DNA of 64,000 bases, taken from contig QKHT01000212.1 in the NCBI GenBank assembly GCA_003249935.1, positions 62,001 through 126,000 on the forward strand, written 5' to 3'. Each line of letters opens with the position of its first letter. The stretch's first letter is position 1. Below are positions 33,709-37,430 of this stretch, piece after piece. The notes under the pieces are model-generated. The model searched no databases. It saw only the letters and a program-made list of their open reading frames with translations, and was not told the origin of the DNA. Both the position numbers and the translations under genes were made by a program. Origin of the DNA: Bacteroidota bacterium (GTDB taxonomy: Bacteria; Bacteroidota; Bacteroidia; Bacteroidales; UBA5342).

Positions 33709-33782
33709 GGACTCGTAGCTTAATTGGATAGAGCTTCTGACTACGGATCAGAGGGTTGGGGGTTCGACTCCCTCCGAGTTCA
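33709..33782 (+). tRNA. tRNA-Arg (anticodon ACG), copy 1
   Basis: A 74-base cloverleaf: acceptor GGACTCG / CGAGTTC with discriminator A, D-arm AGCTTAATTGGATAGAGC, anticodon stem TCTGA / TCAGA around loop CTACGGA (anticodon ACG, read as ICG for CGN codons), T-arm with GGTTCGACTCC. No CCA is encoded. Confidence 0.95.
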
Positions 33783-33825
33783 CAAAATCACTTTTTTGTG
33801 ACGAAAATTTTAGCTTTTGCAAACC

Positions 33826-33899
33826 GGACTCGTAGCTTAATTGGATAGAGCTTCTGACTACGGATCAGAGGGTTGGGGGTTCGACTCCCTCCGAGTTCA
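33826..33899 (+). tRNA. tRNA-Arg (anticodon ACG), copy 2
   Basis: Identical to copy 1 over all 74 bases, 43 bp downstream and without its own recognisable promoter, so probably processed from one transcript. The spacer is AT-rich and contains a small CACTTTTTTGTG-like dyad. Confidence 0.95.
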
Positions 33900-33900
33900 C

Positions 33901-33950: not shown

Positions 33951-35222
33951 TCAATTATCTAACTCTCTTGTTATGGAAATTGCTGCAATAGTCCCATCGG
34001 CAATAGCCGTAGTAATTTGTCGATATTTTTTACTTGTTACGTCACCCACGGCATACACATCTTTGATGCTGGTTCTTTTATCTTCATCGGTTATAATATA
34101 GCCCCATTGGTCGAGTTCCAAATTATTTTTGAATAGATCGATATTGGGCTTCAATCCAATAAACACAAAAACACCATCGCCCGAAAGTTTAAAAGTATCT
34201 TTTGTTTTTAAGTTTTGAACTTCGACAATCATTCTGTTTCCGTCTTTAATGAAAGCACGAGGTTCATGTTCAAAAAGAAACGAAAATTTTGGATTCGATA
34301 ATATTTTCTCCTGAGCTTGCTTATTGGCCTGGAACTTGTCAAATTGATGAATCATAAACACTTTTGATGCAAATTTTGATATGAAATCGGCTTCTTCAAC
34401 AGCCGAATTTCCTCCTCCAATTACAATTACCTCCTTGTCTGCAAAGTACTTCGCATCGCAAGTTGCACAGTATGAAATGCCCTGACCTTTAAATTCAAGT
34501 TCGCCCGGAATGCCAATTCTGTTAGGCGAAGTTCCTGTGGCAATAATTATTTTTTTTGCTTTTATTGTTTCAAATTCGTCGATAGTAATTTCTTTGGTTT
34601 CAAGATTGACCTTAGTAACATCTACTGCCACTTTATAGGTGGTTCCACATTTTTTAGTTTGCTCCGACATATTATGCGACAACAAATAGCCTGGCTGCGG
34701 TTCAATAAACCCCGGATAATTAGACACCTGATGCGTTGTTGAAACATTTCCGCCGGGCAAATTTATATCAATTAATGTGGCATCAATTTTCGCTTGACAT
34801 AGATATAAACCCGCTGTTAATCCGCCCGGTCCGGCACCTAATATCGCCACATCGGTTTCAGTTACAATGGGTTCAATTCCTGAAAGTAAAGAATTTAACC
34901 GATCTTTTCCCAATATCAGTTTCAAAGTTCTTATTATTTCAGACCTTTTAATTCCGCCGGATAAACGTTGGGCTATTTCTTCGCCATTTTTATAAAATAA
35001 TAATGTTGGTGATGATTTTACATTGAGTTTTTCAGCCAAATCACGATTGCCTTGCCGGTAAATCTTTACTATATGTACCTCATTGCCAACAAGTTTTTCA
35101 ATGCTTTCGAGTTTTGGAGCCAATGCTTCGCAAGGCGGACATTCAGTTGAAAAAAAATCAACAATTACGATTTCATTGCTGCGTAATTCGTTATCAAACT
35201 CATTTGTATTTATTTCCTTCAT
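33951..35222 (-). CDS. Thioredoxin-thioredoxin reductase fusion protein
   Basis: A 423-residue two-part protein. Residues 1-105 are a thioredoxin with active site Cys28-Pro-Pro-Cys31 (STECPPCEAL; CPPC instead of the common CGPC). Residues 122-423 are a low-molecular-weight thioredoxin reductase: FAD motif ILGAGPGGLTAG, redox pair Cys252/Cys255 (YCATCDAKYF), NADPH motif VIGGGNSAVEEADF and a C-terminal AVGDVTSKKYRQ. The thioredoxin comes first, the reverse of the reductase-first fusion of Mycobacterium leprae. It is the last gene of the ArsM-peptide-radical SAM cassette, 6 bp after the maturase gene, and probably supplies dithiol reduction to that system. Confidence 0.93.
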   Translation of the reverse strand: MKEINTNEFDNELRSNEIVIVDFFSTECPPCEALAPKLESIEKLVGNEVHIVKIYRQGNRDLAEKLNVKSSPTLLFYKNGEEIAQRLSGGIKRSEIIRTLKLILGKDRLNSLLSGIEPIVTETDVAILGAGPGGLTAGLYLCQAKIDATLIDINLPGGNVSTTHQVSNYPGFIEPQPGYLLSHNMSEQTKKCGTTYKVAVDVTKVNLETKEITIDEFETIKAKKIIIATGTSPNRIGIPGELEFKGQGISYCATCDAKYFADKEVIVIGGGNSAVEEADFISKFASKVFMIHQFDKFQANKQAQEKILSNPKFSFLFEHEPRAFIKDGNRMIVEVQNLKTKDTFKLSGDGVFVFIGLKPNIDLFKNNLELDQWGYIITDEDKRTSIKDVYAVGDVTSKKYRQITTAIADGTIAAISITRELDN

Positions 35223-35228
35223 AATGTG

Positions 35229-36533
35229 TTATATTGATTCGTTAAAATAGTGAGATACACCAAGGCTTAGTAGTTCAGGAATCGGACGACAGTCTGGCTG
35301 GTGAATGTTCCCGTTATAATTTTTTGCCATTGATGCACATCCGCCGCCACACAATAAACTGTAATTACATGATTTACATTTACTTATAGATAAAATATCC
35401 CGAGATTTCCAATCTTCAATTGCCGTAATATTATGTGTGACTTCAGGATAGAAAGTACCCAATTCTTCACCTTCTTTTCCTACCGTTGCTGTGCACGAAT
35501 AAATATTACCTTTAAAATCAAAGGCCCATTCGGTTTTTGTGCCTGTGCATGCATCAAAAAGTGGGGTAGGCACTTCACCATTTTCATACAAAAATCGCGA
35601 AATGGAAAATGCTGGCTGATGAAATTCCGAAATTTCGGGATGTTGTTGCAAAAGTTCGAAAATATCCGAATACAATTCAAGTCGCGAATAAAGTTTTCCT
35701 CTATCTGTTTGGCAATCATGTAGTTCGTAGTTCCTGCCAAGTTGTGTTTTAAAACTCTTCGATTTTGTCCATCCTTTTTCTATTGCATATTTTGCTAAAT
35801 CGGGTAGATTACCGATATTTTCTTTGTCGATAACCATTCGAAGATTTACCGGAATCTTATTCTCAATCAGCAGGTCTATGCCTTCAACTATTTTATCGAA
35901 TGTAGATTGTCCACCCTTTAAAAATCGTCGTGTATCATGAAATTGTTTCGTACCATCTAAGGTCACTTGTATTTCTCGGATGTTCGGTGAAATTAAAATG
36001 TCAATATATGAGGAAATATTATATCCGTTTGTAACAATTGCGATGTCGAGGGTTCGTTTTTGAGCCTCGCCAATAATATTTGATATTAATTCTTTTTGTT
36101 TGGTTGAACCTAAAAGGGGTTCGCCCCCGAAAATGGTAATATATTTTTTACGAAGGCTAAATTTGGTATCGATATAATTAAAAAATGCCTGTATTATACC
36201 TTCGCTTAATTCCTCTTTTGCTGGTTCATAACTTGATTGATAACAATATGAACAAGCAAAGTTGCAGTTGTAGTTTGTAACAAAAAATATTTGGACTTCA
36301 TCTGATTCACGATCGTCGATAAATTTCAGATAGGCTTTTGTAAAGGCTTTTTTTTCGTCCGATTCGTTAACAATATACCCTTTTTCAACAAGCTCGGGAG
36401 AACTTCCGCCTTCGGTAAACAATCGATAGTCTTTGGCATCCAGAATATCGGCACTGCCATATAACGGGTTTACTATAAAATACTTATCCGAATTCGAAAT
36501 TTTGGTAACAACATTGTATGATGACTGTTTCAT
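35229..36533 (-). CDS. Radical SAM/SPASM protein, probable peptide maturase
   Basis: A 434-residue enzyme. The radical SAM cluster motif is Cys90-x3-Cys94-x2-Cys97 (NCNFACSYCYQ), followed by GGEPLL and a TIM-barrel core. The C-terminal SPASM domain has the full seven-cysteine set: Cys329, Cys347 (GNIYSC), then Cys386, Cys389, Cys395, Cys399 and Cys415, binding two auxiliary clusters. The first 80 residues resemble the peptide-recognition region of RiPP maturases. Directly upstream lies a 31-residue cysteine-containing peptide gene, the likely substrate. It does not look like ArsS, the arsenosugar radical SAM enzyme, which lacks a SPASM domain. The modification cannot be predicted from sequence. 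Confidence 0.85.
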   Translation of the reverse strand: MKQSSYNVVTKISNSDKYFIVNPLYGSADILDAKDYRLFTEGGSSPELVEKGYIVNESDEKKAFTKAYLKFIDDRESDEVQIFFVTNYNCNFACSYCYQSSYEPAKEELSEGIIQAFFNYIDTKFSLRKKYITIFGGEPLLGSTKQKELISNIIGEAQKRTLDIAIVTNGYNISSYIDILISPNIREIQVTLDGTKQFHDTRRFLKGGQSTFDKIVEGIDLLIENKIPVNLRMVIDKENIGNLPDLAKYAIEKGWTKSKSFKTQLGRNYELHDCQTDRGKLYSRLELYSDIFELLQQHPEISEFHQPAFSISRFLYENGEVPTPLFDACTGTKTEWAFDFKGNIYSCTATVGKEGEELGTFYPEVTHNITAIEDWKSRDILSISKCKSCNYSLLCGGGCASMAKNYNGNIHQPDCRPIPELLSLGVSHYFNESI

Positions 36534-36579
36534 CTTATCTTTAATATTTCTTTTTGTGTTTGAGAGCTGTTAATTGCAT

Positions 36580-36627
36580 AAAAAAAGGCCGGATGCCTTT
36601 TTTTACGACTTAGTCGTGGCATCCGGC
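36580..36627 (-). terminator. Partial terminator/attenuator between the small peptide and the radical SAM gene
   Basis: On the minus strand, GCCGGATGCC pairs with GGCATCCGGC, enclosing a smaller ACGAC/GTCGT hairpin and an A-run, and is followed by T7. The left arm overlaps the last codons and stop of the peptide gene. It would let the peptide and methyltransferase be made in excess over the maturase, as is common for RiPP precursors. Confidence 0.8.
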
Positions 36628-36705
36628 GATAATTTTCGACTGTTTGGCACAGCATTGTGCTTCTTTCTTTTCATTCTTAGTCGATTTTCTAACTAAACTT
36701 TTCAT
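36610..36705 (-). CDS. 31-residue three-cysteine peptide, putative RiPP precursor
   Basis: A short frame from ATG (36703-36705) to TAA (36610-36612). The first half is basic and helical-looking (MKSLVRKSTKNEKKEA), the second holds the cysteines: Cys18, Cys19 and Cys29 in QCCAKQSKIIAGCHD. It sits 26 bp after the ArsM-like gene and about 76 bp before the radical SAM/SPASM gene, on the same strand, with a terminator hairpin right behind it. Size, leader-like N-terminus, cysteine-rich C-terminus and position fit a precursor peptide. Alternatives: a metal- or arsenic-binding peptide that stays unmodified, or a leader peptide in attenuation. No family recognised. Confidence 0.65.
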   Translation of the reverse strand: MKSLVRKSTKNEKKEAQCCAKQSKIIAGCHD

Positions 36706-36731
36706 ATATATAAAATTAAAAAGTGTCGTCG

Positions 36732-37379
36732 CTACATGCAGCATGTATATTCGTCCTTAGTGCCAGTAATAGTCCAACTGGCCACCTGAATGCTGCCTTT
36801 ATCGTAGGGGGTACTTTCTTCAAGAATTTCGAGATCTCTGAATCCGGCAATCTTAATTACATTCAAATATTCACTTCTTGTGATCGAGCCTCCCCAGCAT
36901 TCCGAAACGGCTACAGGATCGTTACTGTATTCTTCTGGCACTGGATGAATTGAATATATGTCGCTAATGGTAAATCTACCACCATTTTTGAGTATTCTGT
37001 ATATTTCTTGCCAAACCTTTTGCTTATCTTCAACATGGTTTAATACGCAATTGGAAATAATAAGGTCTATTGAATTGTCTTTCAATGGTATATTTAGCAA
37101 ATTGCTTTTTATAAAATCAACATTCTCGATTCCAAGCTTTTCGGCAGTTGATTTTGCCGAATTTATCATTTCTTCCGTTATATCAATGCCATATACAAAG
37201 CCTTTATTACCTACCTTTTCGGCCAATCGTAAAACATCGGTGCCTCTTCCGCTACCTAAGTCTACACAAATATCACCCATCTTTGGCTCACTTTTATCCA
37301 CTGCACCACCACATGAGAGACAACAATTAGTTTTAGCTAATTTTGTATATCTTATTTGAATCTCGTTTATGTTATTCAT
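36732..37379 (-). CDS. ArsM-like SAM-dependent methyltransferase
   Basis: A 215-residue class I methyltransferase with SAM motif CVDLGSGRGTDVLRLAE. It matches arsenite methyltransferases in its cysteines: Cys111 in ISNCVLNHVEDK and Cys161 in SECWGGSI, the two conserved As-binding positions, plus an N-terminal Cys19-Cys20 (TNCCLSCGG) and a C-terminal Cys213-Cys214-Met end. ArsM enzymes methylate As(III) with thioredoxin as reductant. It could instead act on the peptide encoded downstream. An in-frame ATG at 37409 exists, but the promoter -7 box lies inside that extension, so ATG 37379 is chosen. Confidence 0.82.
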   Translation of the reverse strand: MNNINEIQIRYTKLAKTNCCLSCGGAVDKSEPKMGDICVDLGSGRGTDVLRLAEKVGNKGFVYGIDITEEMINSAKSTAEKLGIENVDFIKSNLLNIPLKDNSIDLIISNCVLNHVEDKQKVWQEIYRILKNGGRFTISDIYSIHPVPEEYSNDPVAVSECWGGSITRSEYLNVIKIAGFRDLEILEESTPYDKGSIQVASWTITGTKDEYTCCM

Positions 37380-37396
37380 TTCACCAATATTTGCTG

Positions 37397-37430
37397 CAAA
37401 TATAAACATATATATTTTAGTATATATGTT
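37397..37430 (-). promoter_or_regulatory. Promoter and inverted-repeat operator of the ArsM-peptide-radical SAM operon
   Basis: On the minus strand TATATTTG (37404-37397) is a perfect -7 box. Immediately upstream lies a perfect 10-bp inverted repeat AACATATATA - 6 bp - TATATATGTT (37405-37430) that covers the -33 region. Its AT-rich form and place are like operators of ArsR/SmtB-type repressors. No such repressor gene is in the window. Confidence 0.6.

Follow-up and report, generated by a model that had tools for sequence, protein, structure and literature searches.

A conserved four-gene module of Bacteroidota pairs a three-cysteine peptide with a radical SAM/SPASM enzyme and looks like an undescribed thiol-peptide system

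What role might a 31-residue peptide with three cysteines play between a methyltransferase gene and a radical S-adenosylmethionine (SAM) enzyme gene? The question is raised by a locus in a 64,000-nucleotide stretch of contig QKHT01000212.1 (positions 62,001 to 126,000; hereafter the window, whose own numbering is used throughout) from the Bacteroidota bacterium assembly GCA_003249935.1. An earlier note on this DNA had singled out four same-strand genes, encoding an ArsM-like methyltransferase, the peptide, a SPASM-type radical SAM enzyme and a thioredoxin–thioredoxin reductase (Trx-TrxR) fusion, and had read them as a system for a ribosomally synthesized and post-translationally modified peptide (RiPP) with a possible link to arsenic. 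All four genes are indeed present, on the minus strand at 33951–37409. Taken together, the evidence below suggests that this module looks like an undescribed intracellular system that produces and recycles a small peptide with thiol groups.

Results

The four parts are conserved and co-inherited

Presence and absence were counted across 247 genomes from the same order as the window genome. The maturase was present in 30 of these (about one in eight) and the ArsM-like gene in exactly the same 30, while the full-length Trx-TrxR fusion was found, at the threshold used, in 29 genomes, every one of them maturase-positive; in G100 the fusion was seen only as a divergent or broken copy. The peptide pattern was detected in all 30 maturase-positive genomes and in one more (G037), and the reversed pattern, used as a control, had zero matches. 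In three genomes (G032, G146 and G241) the fusion lies on a separate contig and yet has been kept.

The genomic arrangement was examined in a locus sample comprising the best 80 of 360 relatives from a genome contig scan, nearly all from Bacteroidota. The peptide was found at all 80 loci, with an ATG start at 79 and a GTG start at L112. The ArsM-like gene lies upstream in 76/80, and at the other four (L076, L092, L093 and L108) the contig starts 0.2–2.7 kb from the maturase; a fusion match lies downstream in 79/80, the contig of L102 ending too early. The three enzymes also diverge in parallel (Mantel rho 0.62–0.65, null maximum 0.13). The four parts are thus conserved and inherited as a single functional unit. 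The earlier note had named beforehand two outcomes that would undo its proposal, and neither was observed: the peptide frame is conserved beside the homologous maturases at 80/80 loci, and a random gene grouping is ruled out by the almost all-or-none co-occurrence of the four parts across the 247 genomes.

For more distant maturases of the phylum (L036–L040, about 30% identity), tblastn against the short flanking sequences matched neither ArsM nor TrxR nor the peptide; these enzymes therefore belong to other systems. A plasmid-borne system was rejected, as plasmids yielded only two distant maturases. Closely related modules were seen in bins assigned to Spirochaetales (L071), Neomarinimicrobiota (L103) and Spirochaetaceae (L112), through either horizontal transfer or misbinning. 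The module is also carried by a named strain, Carboxylicivirga linearis FB218 (L075), which makes it experimentally accessible.

A near-invariant peptide core

The peptide (36610..36705, minus strand; 31 residues, MKSLVRKSTKNEKKEAQCCAKQSKIIAGCHD) is precursor-like and has the Cys-Cys...Cys spacing described earlier. It consists of a Lys-rich leader, MKSLVRKSTKNEKKEAQ, usually starting with MKSL or MKSV across loci, followed by a conserved C-terminal core, CCAKQSKIIAGCHD. The core motif CCAKxSxxxxGCHD ends the peptide at 80/80 loci. Among the genomes of the order, one (G241) has T where the motif has S. In an open-ended search constrained solely by CC, a downstream C and an H close to the frame's end, all 79 peptides recovered read CCAKxSxxxxGCHD. 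The core is encoded by 98 distinct DNA sequences with synonymous changes, a set in which the invariant residues are partly so by construction, because the same motif served as the search pattern. A chance short open reading frame (ORF) is excluded by the conserved residues, the synonymous codon variation and the zero matches of the reversed pattern. The peptide has no family in NCBIfam or Pfam. Its invariance resembles that of a cofactor precursor, unlike variable antimicrobials.

One genome departs from the pattern. The 99%-complete G037 encodes an intact peptide (MKTLIKKKEIAPKAKVAQCCAKISKTVAGCHD, L129:7999-8094 on G037:C3), and the maturase, the ArsM-like gene and the fusion are all absent. 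This orphan copy adjoins a different class I methyltransferase gene, amid TusA, DsrE2, Hdr-like and FlpD genes.

Between the peptide and the maturase, a terminator-like hairpin with a T-run (36580..36627, minus strand; −24.5 kcal/mol, z = −5.97) overlaps the stop codon of the peptide gene. Because of this strong hairpin, the peptide may be expressed at a higher level than the maturase. Comparable hairpins were found 3′ of the peptide in 48/106 loci by a crude search.

A putative SPASM maturase resembling RiPP enzymes

The maturase (35229..36533, minus strand; 434 residues) carries the radical SAM motif CxxxCxYC at C90/C94/C97 and a SPASM region following the pattern CX9-15GX4C...CX2CX5CX3C...C (C329-X12-G342-X4-C347, C386-X2-C389-X5-C395-X3-C399, C415). 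The seven SPASM cysteines noted earlier are therefore all found, together with an eighth, C274; these and the radical SAM cysteines are invariant in 29 aligned homologues. In an AlphaFold2 model (pLDDT 86.6), residues 8–75 (36309..36512, minus strand) adopt a PqqD-like b-b-b-a-a-a topology with a block pLDDT mostly of 84–95, consistent with a putative RiPP recognition element (RRE), an assignment drawn from topology.

The enzyme scored below every NCBIfam cut-off shown. The closest named family is CefB (NF038107), at 171.6 bits against a cut-off of 600, while the RiPP maturase family TIGR04463 gave 139.5 bits (cut-off 525), PapB a profile match of 116.6 bits and the mycofactocin maturase 65.9 of the 265 bits needed. 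Going by their names, CefB and TIGR04463 comprise SPASM enzymes for Cys-rich peptides, but the peptide here has a CCx9C arrangement without the five-residue Cys repeat of CefB. The nearest solved structure is that of CteB (SCIFF; 5why/5wgg; Foldseek E 7.6e-17 for 5why), which like PapB is a ranthipeptide/sactipeptide thioether maturase, and the modelled RRE-like, radical SAM and SPASM layout is shared with both. These two differ from the window enzyme in sequence (16–18% identity), in partner peptide and with respect to the ArsM-like and Trx-TrxR partners, and a thioether is here a predicted product. Like the mycofactocin and pyrroloquinoline quinone (PQQ) pathways, the module combines a tiny precursor with a near-invariant C-terminus, a SPASM enzyme, no obvious exporter and dedicated redox partners, but its core is Cys-based and has no aromatic residue. 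The RiPP reading of peptide and maturase is well supported by the conserved precursor, the RRE-like N-terminus and the CteB match, the chemistry itself being predicted from sequence and model.

An ArsM-like methyltransferase and a dedicated reductase

As its longest ORF, the ArsM-like SAM-dependent methyltransferase occupies 36732..37409 on the minus strand (225 residues); translation probably begins further in, at the ATG at 37379 (MNNINEIQIRY...), the methionine with which homologues start. Among solved structures, the best relatives are the arsenite methyltransferases 8xt7, 5evj, 4kw7 and 4fr0. Cysteines C33, C48, C121 and C171 are conserved in 73/73 homologues, and C33, C121 and C171 align with the metalloid ligands of solved arsenic methyltransferases; in CmArsM, the corresponding three are established as the As(III) ligands. 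For all this likeness to CmArsM (4fr0, 4kw7), the enzyme differs from ArsM in its shortened N-terminus with a CCLSCGGA motif and as an obligate partner of peptide and maturase, and its score of 193.5 bits is below the 263-bit cut-off of the ArsM family (NF008823/PRK11873). At one locus, L106 (G090), the Cys pair of CCLSCGG is absent (SLSCGNT), and the rest of the module is there.

The Trx-TrxR fusion (33951..35222, minus strand) comprises a thioredoxin (residues 1–105) with a CPPC motif and a low-molecular-weight NADPH thioredoxin reductase (residues 122–421) with a CATC motif, the latter retained in 67/67 homologues. The reductase part scored 311.5 bits against TIGR01292 over residues 124–420, short of the 343.45 cut-off, and is predicted to work like TrxR. 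Features shared with TrxR/AhpF-type fusions are the ordinary, CATC-bearing TrxR core and a Trx-fold domain at the N-terminus. In contrast to these, the window protein has a single CPPC/CAPC thioredoxin ahead of TrxR, and its subfamily is confined, within the sample, to module-positive genomes.

Neighbouring genes point to thiol and sulfur redox

Genes within 8 kb of the module in the 80 loci were surveyed by clustering, selected Pfam scans and tblastn counts. DUF1847 was found in 39/80 loci (e.g., L041:3719-4267), often between maturase and fusion, followed by an SQR-like FAD enzyme (17/80), a CoA-disulfide-reductase/rhodanese (15/80), rhodanese (14) and DUF302 (12), and extra thioredoxins recur as well. 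These recurrent neighbours point to sulfur/thiol redox. Genome-wide, DUF1847 was present in 19/31 peptide-positive vs 13/216 other genomes, counts not corrected for relatedness, and was often unlinked to the module. Unlinked DUF1847 islands contain NifX-like and, by sequence reading, DUF134-like genes. In the window genome, the DUF1847 gene is flanked by small NifX-like genes on one side and by a gene for a DUF134-like regulator on the other (L132:6036-7626, G000:C82), an island that other module-positive genomes share. We found no mention of DUF1847 in the literature searched.

The arsenic link proposed in the earlier note fared unevenly. The invariant metalloid-ligand cysteines of the ArsM-like enzyme speak for it, but inspection and selected Pfam scans of the recurrent neighbours, as opposed to a dedicated profile search, revealed no recognisable arsR, acr3/arsB or arsC, and Acr3 is only modestly enriched, on other contigs (24/30 module-positive genomes vs 103/217 others). 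An arsenic resistance operon was rejected on these grounds, and we regard the arsenic reading as half supported. Nor were transporter-, exporter-, peptidase- or immunity-like families recognised as recurring nearby, the larger clusters having been inspected and not fully scanned with profiles.

Discussion

A candidate intracellular thiol cofactor and its rivals

Our leading explanation, held tentatively and at somewhat less than even confidence, is an intracellular RiPP-type cofactor, i.e., a thiol peptide retained in the cell for methylating or otherwise handling a soft element and recycled by Trx-TrxR. The putative RRE of the SPASM enzyme would recognise the Lys-rich leader, and the CCAKxSxxxxGCHD core would be modified, most likely by a Cys thioether as in the nearest characterised relatives. 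The product would stay in the cell and, with its His and Asp and a minimum of one or two thiols left free, could act as a soft-element ligand. The ArsM-like enzyme would then act on a peptide-borne adduct of As(III), Sb, Se or sulfane sulfur, and the NADPH-driven fusion would reduce the disulfides formed at each turnover. Glutathione can serve elsewhere as the carrier of such an adduct; to our knowledge, Bacteroidota generally lack it. A bolder version, which we consider doubtful, is that a three-cysteine RiPP with its own NADPH reductase would constitute a new kind of thiol cofactor made from a peptide, standing in for glutathione in Bacteroidota as the carrier ligand when a soft element undergoes ArsM-type methylation (or transfer). 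If true, a thiol-peptide cofactor would connect peptide modification by radical SAM enzymes to the metabolism of metalloids or sulfur.

The cofactor explanation is supported by the all-or-none co-occurrence, the retention of the fusion on other contigs and the parallel divergence of the enzymes, by a core conserved despite synonymous change, the RRE-like N-terminus, the CteB match and the invariant ArsM ligands, as well as by recurrent neighbours that include thiol/sulfur redox genes, with a DUF1847 association and no transporter- or peptidase-like families recognised. Several points weigh against it. The association statistics are inflated by phylogenetic relatedness, and thioether formation would use up thiols required by the carrier. 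None of the recurrent neighbours was recognised as an ars gene, and the absence of both transporter and ars genes rests on inspecting clustered neighbours as opposed to a dedicated profile search. Finally, the peptide may function unmodified in G037, because the three enzymes are absent from that nearly complete genome.

Among the rivals, a sulfur relay accounts for the neighbours nearly as well as the cofactor explanation, and we consider it possible though rather improbable overall. Here, the peptide would carry sulfane sulfur, bound as a persulfide, from one rhodanese/TusA/SQR-type enzyme to another; Trx-TrxR would be the reductase that releases sulfide, and the ArsM-like enzyme would methylate a thiol or sulfide. 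The SQR-like, CoA-disulfide-reductase/rhodanese, rhodanese, DUF302 and extra thioredoxin neighbours fit such a relay, as does the setting of the G037 orphan amid TusA, DsrE2, Hdr-like and FlpD genes, a set also seen near L086. However, the redox neighbours are clade-variable and absent near the window genes, the DUF1847 island of the window genome is on another contig, and the ArsM metalloid ligands are fully kept. An unlikely alternative is a soft-metal buffer or metallophore, in which the mature peptide would protect the cell by binding Cu(I), As(III), Hg(II) or the like, with help in detoxification from the ArsM-like enzyme and Trx-TrxR. While the conserved three Cys, His and Asp of the peptide, the ArsM relatedness by sequence and the Acr3 counts agree with this, metal-efflux and metal-sensor genes were not recognised among the recurrent neighbours, and a buffer does not obviously need an obligate methyltransferase.

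The obligate co-occurrence of the ArsM-like gene with the peptide could instead mean that the enzyme methylates the peptide itself in a second tailoring step, and methyltransferases are common as RiPP tailoring enzymes. We judge this improbable, since the ArsM ligands are retained and the Trx-TrxR partnership better suits an ArsM-like redox cycle. SPASM-associated peptides are by general habit secreted, but a bacteriocin or signal is very unlikely for a core that is nearly invariant across many bacterial families and has no export-, protease- or immunity-like families recognised as recurring nearby. Least credible of all, and largely refuted, is that the short ORF is no product but a Cys-codon attenuation leader whose terminator controls the maturase gene. 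The hairpin with its T-run after the ORF would fit this role; however, A, K, S, G, H and D are as conserved as Cys in the open-ended search, the ORF is kept 0.7–2.5 kb from the maturase at L070, L079, L083 and L110, and it persists in G037 without any maturase.

The claim that the four-gene set is not a described system has held so far, in that the peptide belongs to no curated family and no description of the set was found in the literature searched, with most subscription journals and all preprints outside its coverage. The nearest published context found for the module is a 2026 review (PMC13188914) whose list of proteins, most of them tied to metal(loid) resistance, includes ArsM-type selenoproteins with UxxG motifs.

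Layout and flanking genes

The gaps between the four genes are 26, 76 and 6 bases. The earlier suggestion of a single promoter for the set found no backing in a promoter scan, whose matches were no more numerous than in shuffled DNA. Genes outside the set, none with an evident link to the module, include a sugar-phosphate-transferase-like gene and rRNA methyltransferase genes (NCBIfam) and, directly past the end of the fusion gene, two tandem tRNA-Arg (ACG) genes, at 33709–33783 and 33826–33900.

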